64,000 bases of DNA from a bacterium (GTDB lineage Bacteria > Cyanobacteriota > Vampirovibrionia > Gastranaerophilales > Gastranaerophilaceae). Within the stretch, counting starts at the first letter, position 1; each line of letters begins with the position of its first letter. Shown here one piece after another: positions 26,528 through 49,297 of this stretch. The stretch is from positions 64,001 to 128,000 of the forward strand of contig JAFYQF010000023.1 of NCBI GenBank assembly GCA_017559905.1, written 5' to 3'. The notes below the pieces were generated by a model that was not told the DNA's origin, did no database searches, and was given only the letters and a program-made list of their open reading frames with translations. The position numbers and the translations under genes were made by a program.

Positions 26528-28588
26528 TTATAATTTACTAAAATCACAGATATAGTCATACTTTTCTTTAAGCAATGAAAGCAATGCTAAACGATTTTGT
26601 TTAACTTTTTCGTCTTTATCCATTACTAAAACATCGTTAAAGAATTTTTCAACTGATGGGTTGATTTCTTCTAATTGTTTTAAGAATTTTGCATAATCAT
26701 CTTTTGCATCAACTGTTGCAATCTGTTTGTACAACATATTTTCAGCAGGATTGTTAAACAATTCTTTATTAACAGAAACTAGAACTGTTTCTTTTAGCAA
26801 TCTAGCTACACGATTTGCACTTTCAAGCATTGCCGGAGAATTCAATGTAGATACAACTTTTACTCTTTCAACATAATCTGCCAGGTTCTCCAATGGATTT
26901 TTGTTTGAAGCACAAGCTTCTAGAACATTTTTAGCATATTTATCTGATAAGAATATAATCAATCTTTGAACAATAAATTCAGTGATTTCTTCTTTTACTT
27001 TTCCAGTAACTCTGCCAGTGAAAGAACCTGCAACATTTTTAATCTTGTCAACTACAGTCTGACCTTCCATAGCAATTGGCAAGTTAATCAATGTTTCATT
27101 AATCAAAGCATCAAGATTAATTTTTAAATCATTCGCCATAATTGTTCTAATAATACCTAAAGCTGCACGACGTACACCCAATGGATCAGAAGAACCAGTT
27201 GGTTTTTTGCCTTCTGCAAACACCGCAGCTATAGTATCAATCTTATCAGCAATACCTACAATTTGACCTTCCAAACCTTTAGCAGTTTCACTTTCAGCAT
27301 TTAGAGGGAAATAGTGTTCTTTAATACCTTCACAAACAGGAGCTAATTCACCTGAAACCCTAGCATAATCAGCACCAATATAACCTTGTAATTCAGTGAA
27401 TTCAAACACCAAATTAGTAGTCAAATCAGCTTTAGCTAAAAGTGCAGTTCTTTCAACCAATCTTGAATCAGCTATATTCAACTGTTTGCAAATATTTCTT
27501 GATAACTTAACAAGTCTTTGAGCCTTATCATACATAGAACCCATTCCTTTTTGGAATGTGATACCTTTCAAGTCCTCAACATAACCTTCAAGTGGTTTTT
27601 TAGTATCTTCGTTAAAGAAAAATACAGCGTCATCAAGACGTGCTTTGATAACTCTTACGTTACCAGCTTTGATATTTTCAAATTCATCTCCAAGATAATT
27701 TGTCATTGTGATAAATTTGTTAATAAGCTTGCCATCTTTGTACAACGCAAAATATCTCTGATGTACAGCCATTACGGTAACAACTAATTCTTCAGGAAGT
27801 TTTAAATACTCTTCTGAAAAATCGCAAGTTGCCGGCACTGGATACTCTGTGATAAAAGTAACTTCATCCAACAAATCATCTGTATAATATGGTTCAGCTC
27901 CGAATTTTTGAGCTTCAGCTTTTGCTCTGTCGATAATGCGTTGACGACGTTCGTTTTGATCAACAATTACGCAACAATTACGCATCAACTCAACGTAATC
28001 ATCAGGATGACCAATTACAACTGATTGTTGCGCAAATCGGTGACCTCTAGAAACATTAGAACTTTCTTTGTCAATAATTTTTATTTTCACTTCTTCTCTA
28101 TCAAGAATAGATACTATCCATCTAATAGGTCTTGAGAATTTTTCTTCATTATCAGCCCAACGCATGAAGTGAGAGCCTTGCAATTTCAAAACTAGAGAAG
28201 GTACGTTAGCTTGAAGTAATTCAACTATTGATTTACCTTTAATTAAAATCTTTGCATGGATATAATCATCTTCTACATACAAGTCATCCGGCGCAACGCC
28301 ATTTTTATTAGCGAAACCTAAACCAGCTTTAGATAAATTACCTTCTTCATCGTAAGCAACTTTTTTTATAGGCCCTCTTACGATTTTAACTTCGTCAGGG
28401 CTATTTGCCTCCAAGCCATCTATAATAACAGCAAGTCTTCTTGGTGTTGCATAAACTTTGACATCAGAAAATCCAACTTTATTATCATTTAAAAAATCCT
28501 GAAATAGTTTTTTCAATTGATTAATTGCTGAAGGTATAAATCTATAAGGTAATTCTTCTGTTCCGATTTCTAATAAATATTTACTCAT
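26528..28588 (-). CDS. glyS: Glycyl-tRNA synthetase, beta subunit
   Basis: This is the tRNA-binding half of the alpha2-beta2 glycyl-tRNA synthetase; 686 aa is the usual length. The start is YLLEIGTEELPYRF, the beta-subunit signature. Later come ATPRRLAVIIDGL, MRWADNEEKFSRPIRW, VHQRYFALYKDG, an HD-like region with KADLTTNLVFEFTELQGYIG, KIDTIAAVFAEGKKPTGSSD and a C-terminal anticodon-binding-like part. The alpha subunit glyQ is not next to it or elsewhere in the window, so the subunits are encoded apart. Confidence 0.95.
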   Translation of the reverse strand: MSKYLLEIGTEELPYRFIPSAINQLKKLFQDFLNDNKVGFSDVKVYATPRRLAVIIDGLEANSPDEVKIVRGPIKKVAYDEEGNLSKAGLGFANKNGVAPDDLYVEDDYIHAKILIKGKSIVELLQANVPSLVLKLQGSHFMRWADNEEKFSRPIRWIVSILDREEVKIKIIDKESSNVSRGHRFAQQSVVIGHPDDYVELMRNCCVIVDQNERRQRIIDRAKAEAQKFGAEPYYTDDLLDEVTFITEYPVPATCDFSEEYLKLPEELVVTVMAVHQRYFALYKDGKLINKFITMTNYLGDEFENIKAGNVRVIKARLDDAVFFFNEDTKKPLEGYVEDLKGITFQKGMGSMYDKAQRLVKLSRNICKQLNIADSRLVERTALLAKADLTTNLVFEFTELQGYIGADYARVSGELAPVCEGIKEHYFPLNAESETAKGLEGQIVGIADKIDTIAAVFAEGKKPTGSSDPLGVRRAALGIIRTIMANDLKINLDALINETLINLPIAMEGQTVVDKIKNVAGSFTGRVTGKVKEEITEFIVQRLIIFLSDKYAKNVLEACASNKNPLENLADYVERVKVVSTLNSPAMLESANRVARLLKETVLVSVNKELFNNPAENMLYKQIATVDAKDDYAKFLKQLEEINPSVEKFFNDVLVMDKDEKVKQNRLALLSLLKEKYDYICDFSKL

Positions 28589-28694: not shown

Positions 28695-30935
28695 CTATTC
28701 TTGTTCACATCCCATAACATTTATCGTTACATATGAAGTTTTATCAGCAGAAACATTAACTTTTGTTGGGGCAACATCAATTACTCCACCAACGCAACCC
28801 GAAAGATGTGTTACCTGAATATCGTACTTATCTGGTTTTACAGTCCAAGTTAAACTAGTTCCTTGTCCACCAGTCAATGTTCCAGTTTTAAAATCATCCG
28901 TTCCATTTGCATTAACTTCGAATGACGCTACTCCATCGTAACCATCCATGTAATTTATTTTAGCAGAAATAGAACCTATTTCTTCTTCATAAGGTAATGT
29001 AATAATAATATGTTTCTTTTCACCAGCCTTTAATACAAAAGTTGGTTCACTAATTTCAACATTTTTCACACGTTCAACTCCACCTGATAAAAGTTTTATA
29101 CTACCGCCATTAGGAGATGTTATTGTGTAGGTTCCAGGCTTAACTGCTTTTATTACTTCAGTTTTTGGAGCATTAATATTTCCTTTTTCAGAAGATGGAC
29201 CAGATATCTGCCAATTACAAATCTGCACCGTATTAGGCGCTGGGGTTGCACAAGTAATTTTTATTTCAGATTTATCATCACTTTCTTTAGAGAAACAGAT
29301 GGTATTAGACTTTAATTCCTTATCATCAACACTTTGGGCATAGAAACACCCCCCACTCACGTGTCCATTAGAAATTGTCAATTTCAGTGGAGTATCACCT
29401 ACTGCAGAAGATGGTGTAATTCCCCAACCTCCATCAAAATCCGATACTAGCACCCATCGCATATCATCATCACTTGTATCAACATAAATACCAGTAACAT
29501 CAACATCTTGCCATGTTTTCACCAATAATGTTCCTGATACATTCTTAACTTCTGGCGTAGTGTTAGAAGTATTTGTACCTGGATATCTAGCAATTAAATC
29601 TTCAAGTTTAATTTTAATTGATTTATTATTAGTATCGGGGGCACACCCATAAGTTACTGTCACATCTGATATTTCATCAGGGTTTACTGTAACAACCGAA
29701 GGTGAAAATGTAACATTAGTAATAGGCTCATAACAATCCTTTGTGCCTATGCCACTTGGACATCCTGCAGATATAGTCGGATCAAAATTCATATAACCCA
29801 AAGAATAAGAACCTTGTAGCACTTCATTAATATCAACACTTCCGCCAATATTAGATGTAAATTCCTTCGAATAAGATCCACCTGGACCATTAGCAAATAT
29901 TGTCGTTTGAATAATATCAAAAGGTGTACCTGGCGGACAATAAGTATAATCAGCCTCTGAAGTCACACGTATAGTACCATAACCTTCTGGAGGTTCTGAA
30001 TGCTGAACGTCAGCAACTTTACCTCCTGGAATTTCCAAATTCGGTTCACAAATCAAATCGTCAACTATAACATCACTATTTTTTATTGTTACGTGTTTTG
30101 TAAACCAACTACATTTGTATCCTGGAGCAGGAATTGCATTCAAGACATACTGACCATTTACTTTATTAGGTCCTTCTCCAATAACAGCTTTCAAACCTAC
30201 GGCAGGTTTGTTCTTCACCTCAATTTTGTATGTTTTTAAAGTTTCTCTTGGATCAGGAGCTTTTAAATTACTAAAGTCAGCACCTCTTGCAAGCTCTGGC
30301 GGAAGTTCAGAAGCAGATGTTACAATAGTATTTTCATAACCTTCAGAAGTAAACCCAGGTTGAATATAATATTCAAACCTATCTTCACCAACAACGTTTG
30401 GTTCTTCTGGACCATTTGCGTCAATCATCAACACCTGCGCACCGTTTTGAAAATCAGAAATTGGCAAATACCATTCAATACCTTCTGCAGTAGTTGCAGT
30501 AAGAGCTCCAGCCGTACAATTAGCTTCTGTACCAGGTTTTAAAACCAAACGACTTACAAACAATGTACAGAATTTGGTATCACCTTGGTGAGTTACGCCA
30601 TCAACAGTAACAGCAGAAGTATTTGTAAAACCTTCCGATTTCGAAGATCGTGGATACAAATAGTTATCAGAAGATAATTCATTAGTAATTCTTTGGATTA
30701 TCGCTGTTGCTTTTTTGTGCATCGCATCTATATCATCAGGTTGAGCACCTCTCAACACCGTAACTAAAATTAAAGCCAAAATACCCAAAACTAACAAGGT
30801 TACCAGTACTTCAGCCATTGTAAATGCTAAACATTTCCTCAAACAAAAAGTATTACTCTTCTTTTTTTGCCTAAGAAAAAACAAACCAAAATTAATTACA
30901 ACATACTCATCGTCAAATCCAACATTCATACTCAT
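28695..30935 (-). CDS. Giant prepilin-type protein (746 aa) with cysteine-containing repeat domains
   Basis: A 37-residue basic leader ends CLRKCLA, then F38-T-M-A-E42 and a hydrophobic helix (VLVTLLVLGILALILVTVL). That is the type IV pilin/pseudopilin N-terminus with Ala rather than Gly before the cleavage site. Residues 60-220 match the 1,507-aa protein at 39671-44194 closely (DTKFCTLF, GPEEPN, GEDRFEY). The remainder is a string of beta-type modules with paired cysteines, for example GYKCSWFTK. The end has TYTITSPNGGS, also shared. It should be exported through a type II secretion/type IV pilus machine. It could be a minor tip pilin or a surface adhesin. sdaAA lies 71 bases upstream. Confidence 0.8.
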   Translation of the reverse strand: MSMNVGFDDEYVVINFGLFFLRQKKKSNTFCLRKCLAFTMAEVLVTLLVLGILALILVTVLRGAQPDDIDAMHKKATAIIQRITNELSSDNYLYPRSSKSEGFTNTSAVTVDGVTHQGDTKFCTLFVSRLVLKPGTEANCTAGALTATTAEGIEWYLPISDFQNGAQVLMIDANGPEEPNVVGEDRFEYYIQPGFTSEGYENTIVTSASELPPELARGADFSNLKAPDPRETLKTYKIEVKNKPAVGLKAVIGEGPNKVNGQYVLNAIPAPGYKCSWFTKHVTIKNSDVIVDDLICEPNLEIPGGKVADVQHSEPPEGYGTIRVTSEADYTYCPPGTPFDIIQTTIFANGPGGSYSKEFTSNIGGSVDINEVLQGSYSLGYMNFDPTISAGCPSGIGTKDCYEPITNVTFSPSVVTVNPDEISDVTVTYGCAPDTNNKSIKIKLEDLIARYPGTNTSNTTPEVKNVSGTLLVKTWQDVDVTGIYVDTSDDDMRWVLVSDFDGGWGITPSSAVGDTPLKLTISNGHVSGGCFYAQSVDDKELKSNTICFSKESDDKSEIKITCATPAPNTVQICNWQISGPSSEKGNINAPKTEVIKAVKPGTYTITSPNGGSIKLLSGGVERVKNVEISEPTFVLKAGEKKHIIITLPYEEEIGSISAKINYMDGYDGVASFEVNANGTDDFKTGTLTGGQGTSLTWTVKPDKYDIQVTHLSGCVGGVIDVAPTKVNVSADKTSYVTINVMGCEQE

Positions 30936-37061: not shown

Positions 37062-37505
37062 TTATCTACCTATTTCTGTAGCACGAGAAGCCATAGATTT
37101 TGTGATATTCACTAGTGCAAGGTTAGCCTCATAAGCTCTTTGCGCCAATATAGCATCCGCCATTTCAACCATAGGGTTAACGTTAGAAGCTCTTATATAG
37201 CCTTCAGCATCAGCATCAGGATGACCTGGTTTATAAATCCTTTCTCCAAGGTTTGTATCTTCAATTGTGCCGTTAAACACAACCCCACCTTGAAGCAATG
37301 GCAAAGTACCAATTCCAAAAACATCTTCTTTCATTTCGTTTAATAGTCCGTGAAAAGAGATTTCTTCAGTCGCATTCAAAACTGGAATACGTCTAACATA
37401 GTTTGGCGTATCAATGTTTGCCATATTTCGTGAATGTACGTCAAGTCTTAATCCGTGTGTGCGGAGTGCTCTTTGACCTATATCCATTGAACCCATTAGA
37501 CTCAT
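37062..37505 (-). CDS. flgC: Flagellar proximal rod protein FlgC
   Basis: The 147-aa protein has the N-terminal rod motif SRNMANIDTPNYVRR (A-N-x-x-T-P-x-Y) and the C-terminal helix NPMVEMADAILAQRAYEANLAL, both typical of FlgC. AGGAG lies 8 bases before the ATG. It follows flgB by 51 bases. The usual next gene, fliE, is missing here. Confidence 0.93.
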   Translation of the reverse strand: MSLMGSMDIGQRALRTHGLRLDVHSRNMANIDTPNYVRRIPVLNATEEISFHGLLNEMKEDVFGIGTLPLLQGGVVFNGTIEDTNLGERIYKPGHPDADAEGYIRASNVNPMVEMADAILAQRAYEANLALVNITKSMASRATEIGR

Positions 37506-37556
37506 AATTTATGCTCCTGTCTTTTTTCTTATGCCGAAGTTTAAAAATCCGACGAA

Positions 37557-37904
37557 CTACTTACCTACATTAATTACAGTTTTCATTTCTGTAATAATAT
37601 TAGACATACGTCTTGTTGCCATTGTATAAAGAAGTGCGTTGTGTTGAAGTTCCATCAACTCTTTATCAGGCTTAATTTCTTCATAAGTTCTTTGAGAAAT
37701 AACGCCTGACGCACCCAATTTTTCAGAAAGTTTAGTTTCCAAAGGACTATTCATACTTCCAAGATATTCAGCGAAATCTATATCACGTCTTACGTATCCT
37801 GGAGTATCCATGTTAGCAAGGTTAGAACCTAATGCGACTTGTCTTTGTGAAATCAAGTCCATCATTAATCCAACTTTTCCCATATGATCTAGTGCTGTAA
37901 ACAT
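37557..37904 (-). CDS. flgB: Flagellar proximal rod protein FlgB
   Basis: The 115-aa protein contains LGSNLANMDTPGYVRRDIDFAEYL, the FlgB rod signature. A C-terminal helix LQHNALLYTMATRRMSNIITE follows. AAGGA lies 5 bases before the ATG. It lies between flgC and the two FlgF/FlgG-like genes, all in one direction. Confidence 0.92.
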   Translation of the reverse strand: MFTALDHMGKVGLMMDLISQRQVALGSNLANMDTPGYVRRDIDFAEYLGSMNSPLETKLSEKLGASGVISQRTYEEIKPDKELMELQHNALLYTMATRRMSNIITEMKTVINVGK

Positions 37905-37944
37905 TTTTGTCCTTTCAAACTTTTTGTAACTTTTACCTTAAATA

Positions 37945-38661
37945 TTATTCTCTAATATTTATTGATTTGTTGTACATATCATCGACAACTTTCATCAACC
38001 TTGTACTAGCAAGCATTGAGGCATTAAGTCTTAAAACTGTACTCACGTTATCGTAGATATTTACGTTAGAATTTTCGATATTATTTTGCGCAAAATATTC
38101 GTGATCAACAACCAATTTAGCTTCACCAGAACCTTCAGTAGGAACCAATTTATTCAAACCGCCTTGTTCGAGTTCTTCTGGGTTGTCGAACTGTACCAAC
38201 GGAATATTACCAGCTTTTTTAGGTTTAGCGCCAACAGCATCGTAAACCATAACATCGCCATTAGCTTTGATTTCAAACTTGTAGCAATTAGTAGGTAGCT
38301 GAATACCTTCGCCAACAATCCAATCGTCACTAGTCATTAGGTAACCGTTTTTGCCTTGCTTAAACCCGCCATCACGAGTGTATTGAACTTCGCCAAACTT
38401 TGACACTACAGGGATATAACCAGGACCCATAATAGCAACATCATAAGGATTGCTTGTTACTTGCACAGAGCCTACTCTGTGGTCAGAACGAATTGCGCCA
38501 GTCAAATAGCCGTCTTCGTTAAGCATTTGTTCAAAGCGCACAGACTTATAACCCTTGGTATTGTAGTTTGCAAGGTCATTAGCTATATAACCAAGCCTAT
38601 CCCATTGGTTAGTTACGTTATTTACGCTTTTTCTGATAATTCCTTGAAGATTGTGCATCAT
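37945..38661 (-). CDS. Flagellar rod/hook-basal-body protein (FlgG/FlgF family), copy 1
   Basis: The 238-aa protein begins with a rod-type helix and LANYNTKGYKSVRFEQ. It then has the central FlgG/FlgE module SDHRVGSVQVTSNPYDVAIMGPGYIPV and YTRDGGFKQGKNGYLMT. The C-terminal NSNVNIYDNVSTVLRLNASM forms the other end of the paired rod helices. FlgF and FlgG are not easily separated by eye. Confidence 0.85.
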   Translation of the reverse strand: MMHNLQGIIRKSVNNVTNQWDRLGYIANDLANYNTKGYKSVRFEQMLNEDGYLTGAIRSDHRVGSVQVTSNPYDVAIMGPGYIPVVSKFGEVQYTRDGGFKQGKNGYLMTSDDWIVGEGIQLPTNCYKFEIKANGDVMVYDAVGAKPKKAGNIPLVQFDNPEELEQGGLNKLVPTEGSGEAKLVVDHEYFAQNNIENSNVNIYDNVSTVLRLNASMLASTRLMKVVDDMYNKSINIRE

Positions 38662-38686
38662 AATTTCAAATTCCTTATAACATTAC

Positions 38687-39385
38687 CTATGACGTACTGC
38701 CTAGTTGAGAGATAACTTTTTGCAAGTTTTGGTTTTGCATCATAAAGATGTGACGGTTAGCCTCGAAGTTTCTGATAATAGGCATCATCGAAATGAACTC
38801 ATTTTGCAAAGAAACGTTTGAATATTCATTGTAACCTTGCTTAACTTGTGGGTCCATAATTACAACACCATTAGTATCGACGACACCAATATGACCTGCC
38901 AAAAGCATTTTCCCATTAGTTTTGTCCAAAACTCTCACGCCACCCATCTCGTCGATTTTGATATCTTGAACCTTTTCAGGCACAAGAGGCAATTGAATAG
39001 GAGTACCTGCGTTTGACAAAACACTTCTATCATCAAGAGTTAAGAGATTACCAACTTTGTCGATTTTGAAACGACCGTCACGAGTAAGCTTAACTCCTCC
39101 AGGGCCTTCAGTTTGGAAGTAGCCTTCTTTAGCGATTGCGACATCCAAAGGATTAGCTGACATAGTAATACGCCCGACTTTTGTGTCAGTAGTTGTGGAA
39201 ATACCATTTACGCCCAAGAATTCTGTAAACGAAGACACAACAGCTTCTTGACGTTGATAACCAACTTTATCAAAACCATTAACGTTTTCGTTACCAATAG
39301 CCATAAGTTGAGTTTGAACCTGCATTGCACGAATAGCAACATCGATTCCTCTCTCCATATAACGTATTCCGCCATTGATTTTCAT
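38687..39385 (-). CDS. Flagellar rod/hook-basal-body protein (FlgF/FlgG family), copy 2
   Basis: The 232-aa protein has a GAGGT site 6 bases before ATG 39385 (MKINGGIRYMERGIDVA). The motifs are ENVNGFDKVGYQRQE, TKVGRITMSANPLDVAIAKEGYF, LTRDGRFKIDKVGNLLT and the C-terminal EYSNVSLQNEFISMM. The MERGIDVAIRAMQ segment is close to FlgF and FlgG starts. It is the first gene of the rod cluster. Confidence 0.85.
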   Translation of the reverse strand: MKINGGIRYMERGIDVAIRAMQVQTQLMAIGNENVNGFDKVGYQRQEAVVSSFTEFLGVNGISTTTDTKVGRITMSANPLDVAIAKEGYFQTEGPGGVKLTRDGRFKIDKVGNLLTLDDRSVLSNAGTPIQLPLVPEKVQDIKIDEMGGVRVLDKTNGKMLLAGHIGVVDTNGVVIMDPQVKQGYNEYSNVSLQNEFISMMPIIRNFEANRHIFMMQNQNLQKVISQLGSTS

Positions 39386-39539
39386 AACTTCTACCTCTAC
39401 TTTGTTTTTGTATAATACTACGGCTATATTTACAGTTTGACGTAGTTTTATAAAAAAAAATCCTCTATTTGTATGGGTTTTATATTTTTTATAAGGATTT
39501 TTGAAAAGAAGTCAACATTTTTGGTACTCTAAATTTTCC

Positions 39540-39574
39540 TGTCATTCTGATGAGCGTAAGCGAAGAAGAATCTC
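39540..39574. repeat. Second copy of the TGTCATTCTGA-type extragenic repeat
   Basis: It begins TGTCATTCTGATGAGCGTAA and ends GAAGAATCTC, a variant of 25790-25815 with a different middle. It lies in the 285-base gap between the flagellar cluster and the giant pseudopilin gene. Confidence 0.65.
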
Positions 39575-39670: not shown

Positions 39671-42600
39671 TTAATCATCTAGCTCCCAAGTATCGTAATT
39701 AAGAATGATAGTAACAGATTGGACTTTATTAGTGGTCAAAGTAAATTGAGCAGGTTTTGGTGTAGTTGCAGTTACTCTTATACCACAACTTCCACTCCTA
39801 TCACAAACGCGACCACCATGAGGTGAAGTTACTGTGTATGTACCAATAGGAGCATCATCGATGTATATATCACCATCATCAGCATACCAAGTACCCTTGA
39901 ACTGATCTCCAGTATCGTGATTATATAAATCATAATCACATTGCGCCGCAACGTAGTCACCTTCACCTTGACAAGAGAGGAGAATCGTACCGGTTCCGCC
40001 ACCACTGCCACTGTCAGATTTAGTAATACAAACTTTAGAAGAGGTAGCCGAGCCATCCGTATATCTAGCATAGAAGCATCCACCAGTAGTGTGATATTTA
40101 GATACTTCAACCGATACAGCTTTAGTACCCGTTCCTGATGATGGACTTGGGAACATAGTATCCCCTTCTGCGATGATTTGCCAAGCTTTTGTATAATTAG
40201 ACGGTACAACACTAAAGCCTGAAATAGTAACGTCTTGAGCTGCAGTTACAGTAACAGTATTGCCACTAGCAGATACTGTTGGAGTTGTACCAGTAACATC
40301 TCCGCCACCATATTTAGCACTTAAAGAACCGACTTTCAACTCAATAGTATCTTTAACAGACGAGCCATTACAGCCATAAGTGATTTTAACATCTTTAGTA
40401 CCGCCTTGTGGAACGGTAACAGAAGATGGCGAGAAGGTTACTTTAGTAATATCGTCATAACAAGTAGTACAACCATATCCACAACCACAACCCATTGATA
40501 TGGTAGGATTAAAGCCACTATAACTAAATGTGTAAGAGCCAGCTGCAACAGTCATTTCACCTGACACACCAGGATTACCAGTTAGATCCATGTTATAAGT
40601 ACCACCGCCAGTAGCAATAACGTTGATACCGATGATATCAAACACGGTAGAAGAACCGCAATTAGTATAATCAATATCCGTAGTAAATCTAATCTTACCA
40701 TCAGATCTAGCGCCTAATGCATAACAAACATTAACGGTTTTAGTAGATGAAGTAGTACCAAAACTTGCCGAAGTAGCCCCGAGAACCATCTGATAATCGT
40801 TATTAGAGTTATTATTAACAGAACCGCTTAAGCTATATGTTTTGCCACACGGTACGGTTACGGTTGCTCCTCCAAGACTTCTTGGGTTGAATGTTGTTGA
40901 TTTTGATGTGGTATCACTTGTGTATGTAATTGTACCGTCTATATCGACCACATCACATTCGTTGTTACCAACCATTCCGTTTTGGAATGTAATTTTACAT
41001 TCTTGCGCTTTCGGCTTCATACAAACATTTACGGTATTTCGTGCAGATGTAGACATAAATGATGTTGAAGTTGGTGAGAATGTTATATCATATCCATCTT
41101 TCGATGCACTGTAATTATATGACTGACTACAAGGCACCTGAAGCACAGGAGTTTGTCCAGGAGCAAAATATGTAGACGCACTCTTTCCACCTGTTACATT
41201 TATGGTTGTTGATACTGAACTAGATGTTGAACAACCTGATGCAGTAGAGTTCTTGAACATAATCTCACATATTGATGAAGTTCCGCGCTCTTCTAATGAA
41301 TAATTAATATTAACAGTAGTATTCTTACAAATCTGTCCACTCCAAGAACCTCCAACAGGAGAACCATCGACGGTTACTGATTTTACAATACCCTTCAATG
41401 AAACATTGCTTGGGATATAATCGCTACCATTTGAATAATAACCACTCTTTTCATAGGCTGGATCATTGAATGTAAATGAGGCTGTTGTACCACCATTTAC
41501 TGTTGTTTGGTAATAACCACCACCCATAGAGCTATATGGAGAAATATACCAAGGGCCAGAACCATTACCCCAACCAGCACTCATATAGATTGGGCTATTA
41601 GAATAAGAATCATAAGTTTCTGTTACTGTCAATGTATACCTATTTGAAGAAGCACAAGGGTCTGGAAGTGCTGATTCATCAATAGTAAACTGAGCCATGA
41701 AATCAGTACCTAGACCTTCAAATAAGCTTGTTGATTGAGATAAACTACCAACATTTGTGCCATTTATATTCAAACCTGTCACAGACAATTGCGCTATATC
41801 AGAGATTTTAGTTTCTCCTGGCACTTTTATAATTGTACTATAGTCAGACAATGTTGCGATACTGAATGAACCAGAACCAACACTGTTGCCTCCAACTTTT
41901 AATGTATAATTACCCGTTGCAGAATGCACACCATTTCCATGTTTTATCAACAATTCTAATGTCTTTTCAGGATCTTTTGTACAAGCAAAATCTAATGTTA
42001 CGTTAGAGGTTTTGCCTGCAACTACGTTTACTGATGATGGTGTTGGACCTGTCAATTTTAATCCGCATTTGTCATCTTGACCTGAAATTACTATATTACT
42101 TGCTGATATATTATATGAACCTGGCATCATTTTGTGTTCTGCTGATTGTGAACCACCCTGTGCGGCAGACAATGTACCAGACTCATCATCACTTGGGCTA
42201 CCACTTACTAGGTATTTTGCTGATACATTTGATACATATTCTGTACCTGCCAAGTTCAAAGTAACTTTTACTGTTCCCTTTGCACTGTTTTTACATGCAC
42301 AATCAAAATCCATTGCTGGTAACATTGTATTCATTACGTTGTACATCTTTTCGCCAATTTGAATACTTGTTTCTTCTCCAATTGGATAGTCTGTACCGTC
42401 TATTGTGATTACCCATGATTCTGTTCCATTGTCGACAACTTCGTCAAATCTGTCTGCCTCGGTTCCACAAGTCACGCCTGTAACTGCTTCTTTCTTCAAG
42501 GTTACATTAGCACTTGAACCCAAACCTACAGTTTTATTTAATCTGCCCAACGCTGATGCTTTTGTGCCTACATCACCGTTTTCTTTGAAACATGTTTTAT

Positions 42601-44194
42601 ATGTAGCGCCTACGCTTGCTGAGATACTTATACCATCTGGCAAGTCACTGCTTGATGATACTTTTACTGTACCTGTTGTCACGCCGCCGCTTGTTGCATT
42701 TTTAGTTGTTGTTACTTCTATTAAGAATGAGTTTGGTGAATCATCACATTTTCCTATCAAGTTTTCTGTCAATGATACACCTGCGGTGCTTCCTACTGAC
42801 ACCTCAACTTTTTGTTGACCTGACTCACCATTCAAATATGCACCCGCAACTGGAGTTACTGTTACTTCGTAAGATGAGCCTACCAAGTATTTATCTTCAC
42901 TACCTGCTACAGGACAGTTCCCTGGTGGCAATGTCACTGGACAGTTCAATTTTGCTGCTGCTGGTCGGTTATCTACGATTGCACCACATTCAGCTTTAGC
43001 TTCTTTTTTACAATCCCCAGTTACGGTTACGTCTGAATCTACGATTTGGATTGTTTTGCTTGTCCATGATGGTTGATACATTGTATCATCCACACTCTCC
43101 ATTGTTACTGTATAGTTACCTGGAGCTTTGTCACAGCCTGTACCTTCAACTATACATTTGTCCGCAACACCTGATATGTTTGCGGCAATACAATAGGTTT
43201 TATCATCATCATCATCACCGCCTCCGCCTGGATGCGTTACGTCTTGTGCAGCTTTTTCTACTGGTTTTTCTGTATTCTCTGTACATGTCAAGTCGTCTAC
43301 AGTTACGTTTGCATCTTTTACTGTAACTTGTTTTGTAAACCAGCTACATTTATATCCAGGTTTTGGTACTGCCATCAATACATATTGACCGTTTACTTTT
43401 CCGCCACCTGCACCTACCAATGTTTGCAATCCTTGTGATGGCATTGGACTTACAGAAATTGTATACTCTGTCATAGGTGCTCTGTCATCGTTTGCATCTG
43501 GAATTGCATTTTCATCTACTGTCTTTTCTTGTACTAATGTCGGTGGTGCTTCTGTTGTCGCTGCCACCACTGTATTTTCTTCCTCTTCAGCTACTGCTGA
43601 ACCTGGTTGGATTATGTATTCAAATCTATCTTCGCCTATTACGTTTGGTTCTTCAGGACCGTTCACGTCTACCATCAAGGTCTGTGCGCCGCCTTGGAAG
43701 TTATTGATTGGCAAATACCATTCAACACCCTCGTTTGTTACGGCGTTCACTTGACCCGCTGTACAGTTTGGTTCTGTACCTGGCTTAATATTTAATCTGC
43801 TTATGAATAATGTACAAAACTTCGTATCTCCTGAATGGGTTTCTCCATTCAATGTTACCGCGTCAGTGTTCGCCAAGCCATTGAATGTCTTTGTCCTTGG
43901 ATACAAAAATTCATCTGACGCTAACTCATGCACTACTCGTTCCACGACAAATGTCGCTTTCTTATGTAATGCATCTGTCTCATCGGGTTGGGCTTTCTTT
44001 AATATCGGCACTAACAATATTGCCAATGCTCCCAATATACCCAAGGTGATTAATACTTCACTCATCGTGAAGGCTGACAATTCCGTGTTGAACATTTTCT
44101 TCCACGTTTGTCCAAAGGCTGACCAAGCCTTTCTGACGTCCGTACCATCTGGCACTAACGCACCCAAACATTTTTTGCTCAAAAGATTTTTCAT
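39671..44194 (-). CDS. Giant prepilin-type protein (about 1,507 aa) with repeated Cys-rich beta modules
   Basis: The ATG at 44194 has AGGAG 8 bases upstream; an ATG at 44218 has none. A 41-residue leader ends in ELSA, then FTMSEVLITLGILGALAILL. After it comes the domain shared with the 746-aa protein (about residues 60-270). Then follow serial modules of roughly 80-110 aa with the pattern (E/G)-x-C-x-[IV]-x-[FL] ... V-P-C-x-x-x-Y ... V-N-V-C (for example TVNVCMKPKAQECKITFQNG), and the shared C-terminus (TYTVTSPHGGR). Ordinary pseudopilins are 120-250 aa. Surface adhesion or fibre-tip roles are likely. A structured leader precedes it. Confidence 0.8.
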   Translation of the reverse strand: MKNLLSKKCLGALVPDGTDVRKAWSAFGQTWKKMFNTELSAFTMSEVLITLGILGALAILLVPILKKAQPDETDALHKKATFVVERVVHELASDEFLYPRTKTFNGLANTDAVTLNGETHSGDTKFCTLFISRLNIKPGTEPNCTAGQVNAVTNEGVEWYLPINNFQGGAQTLMVDVNGPEEPNVIGEDRFEYIIQPGSAVAEEEENTVVAATTEAPPTLVQEKTVDENAIPDANDDRAPMTEYTISVSPMPSQGLQTLVGAGGGKVNGQYVLMAVPKPGYKCSWFTKQVTVKDANVTVDDLTCTENTEKPVEKAAQDVTHPGGGGDDDDDKTYCIAANISGVADKCIVEGTGCDKAPGNYTVTMESVDDTMYQPSWTSKTIQIVDSDVTVTGDCKKEAKAECGAIVDNRPAAAKLNCPVTLPPGNCPVAGSEDKYLVGSSYEVTVTPVAGAYLNGESGQQKVEVSVGSTAGVSLTENLIGKCDDSPNSFLIEVTTTKNATSGGVTTGTVKVSSSSDLPDGISISASVGATYKTCFKENGDVGTKASALGRLNKTVGLGSSANVTLKKEAVTGVTCGTEADRFDEVVDNGTESWVITIDGTDYPIGEETSIQIGEKMYNVMNTMLPAMDFDCACKNSAKGTVKVTLNLAGTEYVSNVSAKYLVSGSPSDDESGTLSAAQGGSQSAEHKMMPGSYNISASNIVISGQDDKCGLKLTGPTPSSVNVVAGKTSNVTLDFACTKDPEKTLELLIKHGNGVHSATGNYTLKVGGNSVGSGSFSIATLSDYSTIIKVPGETKISDIAQLSVTGLNINGTNVGSLSQSTSLFEGLGTDFMAQFTIDESALPDPCASSNRYTLTVTETYDSYSNSPIYMSAGWGNGSGPWYISPYSSMGGGYYQTTVNGGTTASFTFNDPAYEKSGYYSNGSDYIPSNVSLKGIVKSVTVDGSPVGGSWSGQICKNTTVNINYSLEERGTSSICEIMFKNSTASGCSTSSSVSTTINVTGGKSASTYFAPGQTPVLQVPCSQSYNYSASKDGYDITFSPTSTSFMSTSARNTVNVCMKPKAQECKITFQNGMVGNNECDVVDIDGTITYTSDTTSKSTTFNPRSLGGATVTVPCGKTYSLSGSVNNNSNNDYQMVLGATSASFGTTSSTKTVNVCYALGARSDGKIRFTTDIDYTNCGSSTVFDIIGINVIATGGGTYNMDLTGNPGVSGEMTVAAGSYTFSYSGFNPTISMGCGCGYGCTTCYDDITKVTFSPSSVTVPQGGTKDVKITYGCNGSSVKDTIELKVGSLSAKYGGGDVTGTTPTVSASGNTVTVTAAQDVTISGFSVVPSNYTKAWQIIAEGDTMFPSPSSGTGTKAVSVEVSKYHTTGGCFYARYTDGSATSSKVCITKSDSGSGGGTGTILLSCQGEGDYVAAQCDYDLYNHDTGDQFKGTWYADDGDIYIDDAPIGTYTVTSPHGGRVCDRSGSCGIRVTATTPKPAQFTLTTNKVQSVTIILNYDTWELDD

Positions 44195-44499: not shown

Positions 44500-45249
44500 A
44501 TGTCAGGACACTCAAAGTGGTCAACCATTAAACGCAAAAAAGCTAAAGTAGACAGTCAAAGAGCTGTCGTTTTTCAAAAATATTCAAGAGAATTAATTGT
44601 ATCAGCTAGAATGGGTGGACCTGACCCTGCTGGGAACTTTAGACTCCGTACAGCTATTGAAAAAGCTAAAGCGGCAGGGCTTCCTAACGACAACATTAAA
44701 CGCGCAATAGAAAAAGGCGCTGGCGCTAATGGAGCTGAAAGTTTTGAAGAACTAATCTACGAAGGCTATGCTCCAGGCGGAGTTGCTGTCGTTGTTGAAA
44801 CGATGACAGACAACAGAAACCGTACCGCTGGCGATATCAGAAGTTATTTCACTAAATATAACGGAAGTTTAGGCGCAACTGGCTGTGTAGGTTGGATGTT
44901 CGACCAACGTGGAGTTATCATATTTGACAACACTGTTGATTTTGACAAACTTTTTGAAACAGCTATTGGGCTTGATGCTCTTGATATTACAGAAGAAGAT
45001 GACCAATACAAAGTTTTGACAACTATCGAAAACTTCCAAACTGTTGTTGAAGGTCTAGAAGCCGAAGGTTTCAAAAGTGTTTCTGCAGATTTTTCTAGAA
45101 TTCCACAAAATACAGTTCCTGTAACTGATGAAAAAACCGCAGAACAAATCCTTAAACTTCTCGATAAACTAGAAGAACACGACGACGTACAAAACGTTTA
45201 TGCTAACTTTGATATCGCAGACGATATCTTGCAGAAACTTGAGGGCTAA
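44500..45249 (+). CDS. yebC: YebC/TACO1 family protein
   Basis: The 249-aa protein has the family start SGHSKWSTIKRKKAKVDSQR, followed by ARMGGPDPAGNFRLR, IEKAKAAGLPNDNIKRAIEKG and YEGYAPGGVAVVVE. YebC-type proteins help ribosomes pass stalling motifs (including polyproline) and were earlier annotated as transcription regulators. Its stop overlaps the next start by one base (TAATG), so the diguanylate cyclase is co-translated. Confidence 0.95.
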   Translation: MSGHSKWSTIKRKKAKVDSQRAVVFQKYSRELIVSARMGGPDPAGNFRLRTAIEKAKAAGLPNDNIKRAIEKGAGANGAESFEELIYEGYAPGGVAVVVETMTDNRNRTAGDIRSYFTKYNGSLGATGCVGWMFDQRGVIIFDNTVDFDKLFETAIGLDALDITEEDDQYKVLTTIENFQTVVEGLEAEGFKSVSADFSRIPQNTVPVTDEKTAEQILKLLDKLEEHDDVQNVYANFDIADDILQKLEG

Positions 45250-46604
45250 TGCTTGATTTGTTAGAAAATTTGTCTAAATCTCTTGATAACGCTTACAGTT
45301 CAAAATCTATAGTAAGCGCTGTTAGAGATTTTTTCATTTCTAACTTTAATGTAAATACCCTCGATATATTCATTTTTGATGAAAAATTTAACACAGTTAA
45401 AGACTTCTCTCAAGACTGGGTTGACCCAGACAAAGAAAACGATAATGTTAAATTCTATCTAAAAATATTCGAAGACTTAACTGACAAAAAATATGTAAAT
45501 CACGACAACTACTTATATTTTAAATTACCTAAAAGAAATATTTGTTTCGGAAGTTTGAAAATCAAAGGCGGAGATATCGAAAAAGTTAAGGAATTCTTAA
45601 AAAACGCTTGCTACTTGATTTCTCTAAAAATACAAAATGTAGCTCTCGCTGAAAATATGCAAAAAAATATTGATTTTCACGAACTTATTAGAAATATTGC
45701 AAAAATCATTGAAACCCAATATGAGCTAAATTACATAATCCCGCTTATTGGTGAAATGATTGATAAATTTATGGCAAACCTATTAACTTATATTTTTATA
45801 TTTGAGAATAATGAGTTCAAACTTTTATGGCCAACAAGTTGCAAGGATAACAATATTTTAGAAGCGCTTACTCAACTACAAAACAAGCCCTCTACTAAAA
45901 TAATTGCGGACAAAAAAATCGGAATTTTCCCGCTTATAAACGAAAACCACTTGCTAGGTTGTATTGCAACAAAAACAATGTATTCAACACTTAACGATTA
46001 CGATATAAATTATCTTGAACAACTTGCAAAACAATCTTCTGCAACAATAAATAGAGCGAATGTATATTCTGAAATCCTAAAACACGCTACTCTTGATGCC
46101 CTAACAGGTTTTTACAACAGGCGACATCTTGATGAAAGAATTAAACAAGAAACTGCAAAAGCTCAACGTCAAAAAACACCGCTTTGTGCAATCATGACGG
46201 ATATTGACTTTTTCAAAAGCGTTAATGATATATATGGACACGCAGTCGGTGATTTAGTTTTAAAAACGGTTTCAAAAACTATCCGTTCACAATTAAGAGA
46301 ATACGATATTGCTGGACGCTACGGCGGAGAAGAATTTGCAATTTTGTTACCATTCACAAGAACCGAAGAAGCCGTAATGGTTGCAGAACGTTTAAGACAT
46401 TCTGTGGAAAATACCATAATTGACTTATCAAAAGTTAATCCTGATGCGCCACAAAAAAGTATTAATGTTACAATAAGTATAGGTATATATGAATTCAAAA
46501 ATTCAGACATCTCTGATGACTTGTTAAAGAAAGCAGACAAAGCACTTTACCAAGCCAAAGATACTGGAAGAAATAGGGTTATTATAAATAAAGATGAAAA
46601 ATAA
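45249..46604 (+). CDS. Diguanylate cyclase with GAF-like sensor
   Basis: This protein makes c-di-GMP from two GTP. The 451-aa product has an N-terminal part (1-150) of unclear fold, a GAF-like domain (about 150-275) and a GGDEF domain (about 285-448). The GGDEF signature is RYGGEEFAILLP. The I-site RxxD (REYD) lies five residues before it, so product inhibition is expected. Other signatures: LDALTGFYNRRHLDERI and DIDFFKSVNDIYGH. No membrane segments are seen. It sits in yebC-DGC-tsaE-tsaB. Confidence 0.93.
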   Translation: MLDLLENLSKSLDNAYSSKSIVSAVRDFFISNFNVNTLDIFIFDEKFNTVKDFSQDWVDPDKENDNVKFYLKIFEDLTDKKYVNHDNYLYFKLPKRNICFGSLKIKGGDIEKVKEFLKNACYLISLKIQNVALAENMQKNIDFHELIRNIAKIIETQYELNYIIPLIGEMIDKFMANLLTYIFIFENNEFKLLWPTSCKDNNILEALTQLQNKPSTKIIADKKIGIFPLINENHLLGCIATKTMYSTLNDYDINYLEQLAKQSSATINRANVYSEILKHATLDALTGFYNRRHLDERIKQETAKAQRQKTPLCAIMTDIDFFKSVNDIYGHAVGDLVLKTVSKTIRSQLREYDIAGRYGGEEFAILLPFTRTEEAVMVAERLRHSVENTIIDLSKVNPDAPQKSINVTISIGIYEFKNSDISDDLLKKADKALYQAKDTGRNRVIINKDEK

Positions 46605-47770: not shown

Positions 47771-49297
47771 ATGCAAGTCCGAAATATAAATTTATTCTCT
47801 TTTAACCCCATCAGATATAATAACCAACAAAGTTGTTATACCTATAATTTTGCAACTCAAAAGGACACCTTCACAAAGACAACACCGTCAATTAGTTTTG
47901 AAGGTATAAAAACTCAAAAAGATTTTAGAGATATTACAAGAAACCGTATTATTCACTGTTTTTACTGCAATACGCCAATGATTAATCCTAAATACATAGA
48001 AGAATTAAAAGAAAGCGGGCTTTTTAGTCGACCAATTAAAGATATTGTTGCAGAAATTGCACCTTTGAAAGAATATTTAAAACCGGCAAGTTTAGAAGTT
48101 TTTGAAAAAATCGAAAAAATTGCAAAAGGAGCACCACAAACTCATCTTTCTAGAATTATAAAAACACTACATCAAGAATCAATTGCAAGAGTTAGAAAAA
48201 TTCAAGCACCGATTTTAGACAAAATAGAAAAAGAAGGTAGAACTCTTTCTCCAAAATGCAAAAAAGAATTTAAAAGAGTTATGCAACTCCACAAAAACCG
48301 CTTGAACGGAATTCCACAAATTGAAGAATTCAGTTCTAAAGACTTTGCCTACAAACTAGAAAGATGCACAGAAACAATCACTAATGAAAGAATCAAACAA
48401 GAACTTATTCAATATGCAGGGTTAATCGACCACCCAAGTTTCAAAAATGGATTAGCATTAATGCCTGGCAAAGTTATGAATGCTATATTTAAAGATAAGC
48501 CAAATCTTGATTATAGATATCCAGTATCTCCTAAAAGCATCCAATTAAGCATTGTAGAAGATGTAAAAAAACGAGCTATAAAACTAGGGAGAGAAGATAT
48601 TCTTGATTTATGCAAACGTGCAGAAAAGATGTTAATGAACATCCCAGTAAGTATTCCTTTTAGCAACAAGTCATTTGGGCACGACTTAAGTTGTGCTATC
48701 AAAGAACACGCAAATCAAAAAACCTATGACCGCATCAAAGTATTATTAAAAAAATTACCAACATCAGATTCAAACACAAACTCTTTCATTACTAAACATA
48801 GATTGTCTGACTCTGACTCTATTGGTTATTATCTGTTAAAGCCCTCAAGTTGTACCATTGAGCACTTAGTTGTAGCTTCTTCAAAAGCACCTATCACACA
48901 TAAAATATGGGATTGGACATTAGCCTGCGGACCATGCAACAACAAAAGAGCAGATGGAAGTCTTGCTAAATACCTCGAAAAATTTCCGCAAGAAAATCAA
49001 CAAATCTATTTTAACGATATAGCTGGTGTTGTTAACGACGGTATACTAGATTTACAAGACTTCATGGTTCAAAGAAACGTAATACTTAACGAAGGTCACA
49101 GAAAATTAAGTATTACAAAGATATCTCCTGATTTACTAAAGAAAGAATTTGGCGGAGAGAACCCACAGAGAAAATTCAATGAATACATAGCATTGTCAAA
49201 AGAGGGCTATTTAGACAAAGAAGACATTCAAGAATTGAGAAGAATGCTACACAAGCAATGCGGAATTATCGTAAGCCCTCATATTTGCTATAATTAA
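47771..49297 (+). CDS. HNH-type nuclease-like protein with split zinc motif and F-x-G N-terminus
   Basis: In 508 aa, C63-x2-C66 (IHCFYCNTPM) is separated by about 300 residues from the E364-H365 motif (CTIEHLVVAS) and C386-x2-C389-N390 (LACGPCNNKRAD). The order C-x2-C ... [ED]-H-[LI] ... C-x2-C-N-x2-[KR] is that of HNH endonucleases, where normally only about 15-30 residues separate the first pair from the E-H motif. The insert (about 75-350) is charged and helical. The first 45 residues form a polar tract ending SISFEGI (F43-E-G45). The gene could encode a defence or self-nonself nuclease, or a DNA-repair protein; no toxin or immunity partner is next to it. Confidence 0.62.
   Translation: MQVRNINLFSFNPIRYNNQQSCYTYNFATQKDTFTKTTPSISFEGIKTQKDFRDITRNRIIHCFYCNTPMINPKYIEELKESGLFSRPIKDIVAEIAPLKEYLKPASLEVFEKIEKIAKGAPQTHLSRIIKTLHQESIARVRKIQAPILDKIEKEGRTLSPKCKKEFKRVMQLHKNRLNGIPQIEEFSSKDFAYKLERCTETITNERIKQELIQYAGLIDHPSFKNGLALMPGKVMNAIFKDKPNLDYRYPVSPKSIQLSIVEDVKKRAIKLGREDILDLCKRAEKMLMNIPVSIPFSNKSFGHDLSCAIKEHANQKTYDRIKVLLKKLPTSDSNTNSFITKHRLSDSDSIGYYLLKPSSCTIEHLVVASSKAPITHKIWDWTLACGPCNNKRADGSLAKYLEKFPQENQQIYFNDIAGVVNDGILDLQDFMVQRNVILNEGHRKLSITKISPDLLKKEFGGENPQRKFNEYIALSKEGYLDKEDIQELRRMLHKQCGIIVSPHICYN

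Follow-up and report, generated by a model that had tools for sequence, protein, structure and literature searches.

Two genes in a 64,000-nucleotide stretch of DNA from a bacterium of the Gastranaerophilaceae (GenBank assembly GCA_017559905.1, contig JAFYQF010000023.1, positions 64,001 to 128,000; called the window here, with positions numbered from its first letter) encode very long prepilin-like proteins, A and B. From their sequences and those of relatives in sister genomes we conclude that A and B are probably tip adhesins, and we think it rather likely that they are multi-modular minor type IV pilins for which tip display, adhesion, homogenisation of an N-terminal carrier and swapping of distal modules form a single scheme. 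The proteins appear to be of an ordinary kind, pilins with grafted modules, although of unusual size; the novelty would lie in their mode of evolution.

Two long modular prepilins

The two genes and their N-terminal features are as follows.

39671-44194, minus strand: gene A, a predicted 1507-residue modular type IV prepilin (open reading frame with ribosome-binding site; homologous to B and to pilins across the order)
28695-30935, minus strand: gene B, a predicted 746-residue modular type IV prepilin (open reading frame; paralogue of A; N_methyl above cut-off in a search of the genome)
44072-44194, minus strand: A leader peptide, 41 residues, with predicted cleavage at Ala41/Phe42 (motif S-A/FTMSE; in register with solved mature pilins)
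43595-44071, minus strand: A pilin domain, residues 42-200, a hydrophobic helix and a DVNGxExPNxxGxDxF-type loop (common to pilins of about 200 residues; the B counterpart has a predicted local distance difference test score, pLDDT, of about 80-94)
30351-30824, minus strand: B pilin domain, residues 38-195 (AlphaFold2 pLDDT about 80-94; helices at 40-63 and 68-89, then strands)

Both open reading frames had been listed with these coordinates, and no strand, in a preliminary description of the window; both are real and lie on the minus strand. For A, translation from the first ATG (44218) gives 1515 residues and from the second (44194) 1507. Of the two, the second is preceded by the stronger candidate for a ribosome-binding site (GGAGCAAAAAGT ATG, with a GGAG box ahead of the start), and we therefore take 44194 as the best start. 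The paralogy of A and B, with shared N- and C-terminal parts, proved stronger than had been claimed: by alignment, A 41-335 is 56% identical to B 37-333 (E about 1e-100) and A 1152-1501 is 34% identical to B 306-650 (E about 1e-45), the two regions being separated in A by some 800 additional residues. The AFTM(S/A)EVL and TYT(V/I)TSP(H/N)GG segments reported earlier were both found. Calling the proteins Cys-rich is fair, since Cys makes up 2.7% of A (41 Cys) and 2.1% of B (16 Cys) against a window median of 0.91% (42 open reading frames), but the enrichment is only moderate in degree.

The proposal of a prepilin-type N-terminus is borne out. The class III prepilin signals of the two proteins read A/FTMSEVLITLGILGALAILLVPIL and A/FTMAEVLVTLLVLGILALILV (the slash marks the predicted cut), with Ala as the small residue at -1, Phe at +1, Glu at +5 and a hydrophobic stretch of about 20 residues; their leaders, of about 37-41 residues, are unusually long. 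An N-terminal-domain profile that combines A, B and relatives aligns with the mature chains of GspG, PilE and PilA from residue 1 of each. Because this alignment sets the start of the motif against the first residue of mature pilins, we place the cleavage site there, and A and B would thus be cut between the Ala and the Phe of the motif. The Pfam family N_methyl scores above its cut-off for B; A has no match to it. AlphaFold2 predicts the B pilin domain as a 50-residue helical spine with a small head, and the remainder of B as mostly beta, with low confidence; a VIA-align search with the B model listed no separate fold match for the pilin domain. This domain was found in 277 of the 286 genomes of the order, mostly in pilins of about 200 residues among the matches listed, and its named relatives come from Candidatus Gastranaerophilales/Melainabacteria metagenome-assembled genomes, some of them rumen-derived. 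A and B have the architecture of modular pilins: beyond the pilin domain lie modules amounting to about 550-1300 residues, which the pilins of about 200 residues do not have.

A candidate pilus machine

The window genome, which is 99.96% complete, encodes a prepilin peptidase (PF01478) and assembly ATPases of the T2SSE type (PF00437), as the preliminary description had anticipated, together with a secretin, PilN and PilB/PilC-type genes, including one for a PilC/GspF-type protein. It also encodes two ATPases of the PilT/PilU family, scoring 502 and 408 bits against a curated cut-off of 319. Because both lie so far above the cut-off, type IV pilin is an apter name for A and B than pseudopilin, the term used before, which belongs to the type II secretion system (T2SS). 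Further context comes from the sister genome G109, where a 794-residue relative of A and B stands one gene after a secretin-PilB-PilC run; the PilB-type ATPase of this genome scores above GspE and carries an MshE-type cyclic di-GMP motif. Taken together, the machine genes, with their two PilT/PilU-family ATPases, and the G109 context favour a type IV pilus capable of retraction over a system that is purely a T2SS.

A uniform carrier in sister genomes

We compared seven sister genomes (G084, G049, G118, G065, G074, G109 and G287), with two loci in each. The loci are recognised by flanking genes that are also present in the window.

44500-45249, plus strand: yebC-like flank, marker of the yebC site kept in sister genomes
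37062-39385, minus strand: flagellar rod genes (flgC, flgF and flgG types), marker of the flgG site in sister genomes
26528-28588, minus strand: glyS flank, downstream of B and, in G084 and G065, of the copy at the yebC site

In G084 a single 444-kb contig carries both genes, one of 1283 residues at yebC-glyS and one of 1396 residues at flgG-ftsZ. They have in common a block of 1780 bp with two mismatches (99.9%), which opens shortly ahead of the mature start and runs to around residue 640; beyond it they diverge. In each of the other six genomes, contigs break off within the gene at both loci, which is what a repeat would be expected to cause.

Within genomes, the mature coding sequences were 92-100% identical in their first 84 nt, and between genomes 51-85%; the best match of every copy (14/14) was its genome-mate. 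The true within-genome pairing was equalled in 4 of 20,000 shuffles, which is the floor for seven pairs (1 in 5,040 is expected for a single best pairing). A stretch of 200 nt ahead of the mature region, with the leader in it, paired genome-mates for only 2 of the 14 copies; upstream DNA and leader mostly follow the class of site across species, with leaders, for example, of the GGGGHP type at flgG/sepF and of the LGAKSM type at yebC. Since leaders and upstream DNA mostly go with the site and mature N-termini with the genome, the loci are older than the N-terminal identity. This pattern is the textbook mark of concerted evolution, which usually results from gene conversion; the same cause presumably applies in the sister genomes.

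Within the window genome, A occupies the yebC site and is now followed by flgG, and B lies on the glyS side; the order of yebC, flgG and glyS around the two genes is unlike that in G084, having been rearranged. At G000:C21:103473-103700 (L128:5474-5701) the same genome has an intergenic remnant of an A carrier, 96-99% identical to A over 227 bp, with a 252-bp internal deletion and stops. This near-identity suggests recent sequence sharing between A and a third copy, and B has drifted apart. The fragment may serve as a sequence donor; as a functional silent cassette it was set aside, given its length of about 230 bp, its internal deletion and its stops.

Replacement of distal modules

The bodies beyond the carrier behave differently in G065 and G084, two close species. 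The G065 fragments on the glyS side (L214) and on the ftsZ side (L215) share their first 77 bp, with which the repeat left unassembled comes to its end. The distal body of L214 is 89.6% identical over 1.2 kb to the flgG-ftsZ copy of G084 and 92% identical to its own paralogue, but it does not match the distal body of the G084 counterpart at yebC-glyS, despite flanks that are 88-91% identical. L215 is 96% identical over 1.2 kb to the G084 copy designated G084b, with some 400 residues of modules fewer and a different end. The G084 and G065 copies thus combine a constant N-terminus with a variable C-terminus, the arrangement of PilV proteins from shufflons. We conclude that distal modules at the yebC-glyS locus have been replaced between the two species, and these matches imply that distal blocks are exchanged and deleted between loci and between species.

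Beta modules of the bodies

The following modules could be delimited in A and B.

43250-43483, minus strand: A first beta module, residues 238-315, KVNGQYVLMAVPKPGYKCSWFTKQVTVKDANVTVDDLTC (recurs in A, B, G084, G109, G061, G171 and G050)
43010-43192, minus strand: second, divergent A copy of the first beta module type, residues 335-395 (phmmer windows and alignment)
41015-41278, minus strand: A VPC/VNVC module 1, residues about 973-1060 (tandem self-match, E about 2e-6)
40715-41014, minus strand: A VPC/VNVC module 2, residues about 1061-1160 (tandem self-match, E about 2e-6)
39692-40741, minus strand: A distal modules, residues 1152-1501, matching B 306-650 (alignment)
28986-30020, minus strand: B modules, residues 306-650, matching A 1152-1501 (alignment)
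28701-28985, minus strand: B terminal beta-sandwich, residues 651-745, weakly CnaB-like (VIA-align Z 7-8; pLDDT about 55)

The additional serial beta modules ascribed to the larger protein are supported. The V-P-C...V-N-V-C spacing is absent from B and present twice in A, in two tandem modules of about 100 residues, which match each other with an E of about 2e-6 in a phmmer search against about a dozen proteins. A different module, with the consensus GxYxLxAxPxxGYxxSWxxxxVTIxDADV, lies near the pilin domain of A, B and their relatives in G084, G109, G061, G171 and G050, and appears again farther out in some of these proteins. Modules are also permuted: A 1281-1399, 59% identical to part of the flgG-site copy of G084, corresponds to G084b 639-758, where it stands before, not after, the module that matches A 845-1056.

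Searches of the bodies against Pfam, NCBIfam, PHROGs and PDB sequences gave only weak or sub-threshold matches, and no well-known adhesin family matches the modules above cut-off; such a match would have undercut the preliminary description, as would a genome lacking a prepilin peptidase. Relatives show similarity to Flg_new_2 (InlB B-repeat), SpaA and SpaA_2 (prealbumin), all below cut-off; the family search gave no match to these three in A or B, and no CnaB/SpaA or InlB B-repeat domain reached its curated cut-off. Foldseek returned nothing at E <= 0.001 for the whole B model. Its highest VIA-align score, Z 8, falls in the last module; the resemblance of B 651-745 to sortase-pilin and Cna B domains (Z 7-8) concerns a region with pLDDT of about 55 and, according to the tool's notes, possibly reflects a mere common arrangement.

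A proposed constant carrier with a variable tip

These data suggest a model in which A and B would be made as prepilins and cut by prepilin peptidase after Ala. The N-terminal pilin domain would insert them into a retractile type IV pilus, at its tip or close to it; a PilB/PilC/secretin/PilT machine would build this pilus. The serial Cys-containing beta modules would point outwards and bind a host, mucus, food-particle or bacterial surface, and PilT-driven retraction would pull on the surface so bound. Two or three chromosomal gene copies would swap DNA by homologous recombination. Gene conversion, which might operate in the window strain too, would prevent the copies in one genome from diverging in the carrier, which comprises the pilin domain and first beta modules, and keep this carrier matched to the cell's pilus machine, and blocks of distal modules would be gained, lost or swapped between copies and between species.

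The sister-genome pattern fits a constant carrier and a variable tip evolving by recombination, a possible way to vary what a pilus binds. It suggests a route to diversity in the tip repertoire, with the assembly part staying matched to the machine and the outward part free to vary, and would also account for the breaking of several assemblies of the genus at these genes. That this amounts to a chromosomal system, in which distant loci combine one homogenised pilin base with different recombining adhesive arrays and so diversify binding specificity without a dedicated recombinase, is a more tentative idea, which we regard as possible but would stop short of calling probable.

Several observations weigh against the overall scheme. 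The A/B pair is not homogenised, with 61% identity over the mature first 84 nt, and the sole 96-99% match to the A carrier is the decayed third copy, not B; the claims of exchange therefore rest on the sister species. There, what can be seen of six of the seven homogenised pairs is confined to contig ends and to some 100-340 nt. The distal modules fall in no Pfam or NCBIfam family above cut-off, and a single-sequence prediction of A 310-1180 was not usable (pLDDT 34). As for the machine, PilM_2 was not detected in the genome search, and two components lean slightly towards a T2SS, the secretin scoring 164 bits as GspD and 155 as PilQ and the platform protein 301 as GspF and 258 as PilC.

These last scores, with a weak match of the B N-terminus to GspG, are what one would cite for A and B being T2SS pseudopilins whose large bodies select or push exoproteins. 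We think this unlikely: the scores fall below the equivalog cut-offs of both systems, the two strong PilT-family ATPases and the G109 PilB-type ATPase point the other way, and the bodies far exceed the size of a pseudopilin domain and vary between species. A membrane anchor might be all that the prepilin helix provides, A and B then being surface or periplasmic proteins that never polymerise. The unusually long leaders would suit such a role, as would the position of the genes, which are scattered between housekeeping genes and lie in no pilus operon, but it is the entire pilin domain, beyond the helix, that is conserved with the pilins of about 200 residues, and the G109 homologue adjoins pilus machine genes; we give this reading very little credence.

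A further alternative concerns the within-genome identity, which could stem from very recent independent duplications or from assembly chimeras rather than from recurrent gene conversion. The confinement of most pairs to contig ends is compatible with this. However, the two sites recur across species with their own leaders and upstream DNA, so that the loci predate the identity; both G084 copies, with their two mismatches in 1780 bp, sit on a single contig; and in G065 each end of the repeat can be seen, next to flanks that differ. Duplication or chimerism is accordingly improbable in our view, and recurrent gene conversion of the carrier remains the reading that we prefer.

Comparison with known systems

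Modular pilins are a recognised kind of protein (PMC8179133), and the suggestion that A and B might form an undescribed class of anchored surface proteins is not supported. The published survey covers more than 1,200 proteins and 264 architectures, with an extreme of 860 residues, and PilB of Streptococcus sanguinis, which has a vWA module, is an adhesin (PMC8179133). Like A and B, S. sanguinis PilB and PilC join an assembly pilin module to C-terminal non-pilin modules (PMC8179133, PMC9934059); they are displayed at the tip and adhere, as we infer for A and B. Where such pilins have a single vWA or lectin module, A has a lengthy succession of beta modules that carry no annotation (1507 residues against 860 in the 2021 survey), and its family differs in having copies at several loci with a homogenised carrier in sister genomes. 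The present proteins would extend modular pilins to about 1500 residues, in non-photosynthetic gut relatives of cyanobacteria.

The shufflon PilV proteins of R64 and TP114 (PMC9045228) are likewise minor type IV pilins with a constant N-terminal and a variable C-terminal part. TP114 PilV has 345 constant N-terminal and 69-113 variable residues, switched by a dedicated recombinase (PMC9045228). PilV varies at one locus through a tyrosine recombinase, whereas A/B-type genes vary over hundreds of residues at several chromosomal loci; no recombinase was noticed among the window neighbours of A and B, where sfx-like sites were not searched for.

CofB and GspK, discussed in PMC8179133, are also oversized tip pilins with additional domains, but they are much smaller and the domains are others. 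The CnaB/SpaA (prealbumin-like) and InlB B-repeat stalk domains show a weak fold-level or sub-threshold profile likeness to the beta modules, which differ in their Cys pairs, in having no isopeptide signature evident by eye and in belonging to another anchoring system. We know of no copy homogenisation in CofB or GspK comparable to that of A/B-type genes. A literature search, with most subscription journals outside its reach, found no paper on pilus adhesins of Gastranaerophilales.

Neighbouring genes and other prepilins

Two genes from A, at 45249-46604, is a GGDEF diguanylate cyclase gene that is kept beside the yebC-site pilin. Farther along, 47771-49297 encodes a 508-residue protein that matches no Pfam family and has its Cys residues in an HNH-like pattern; it is conserved near the yebC site throughout the genus at about 40% identity. 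A short intergenic repeat (TTCTTC...CATCAGAATGAC) occurs at 39533-39574, at the 3' end of A, and at L128:5238-5277, beside the C21 remnant.

Elsewhere in the genome, L129:9503-15081 (G000:C25, about 169.5-175 kb) holds a minor-pilin cluster adjoining a pilin of about 200 residues. The cluster includes a 1032-residue FSLVELMM-type prepilin with no Pfam match, which proteins of 825-883 residues in G070, G060, UBA2855 and RUG10694 resemble. Near-identical 3' ends of a PilB-type gene lie at contig ends (G000:C25:258576-258968 and G000:C10:1-393; L140 and L145). Finally, two tandem prepilins with nearly the same N-terminus are found at 20.9-22.6 kb of G000:C26 (L139:8881-10673), one of 412 residues and the other cut by the contig end.

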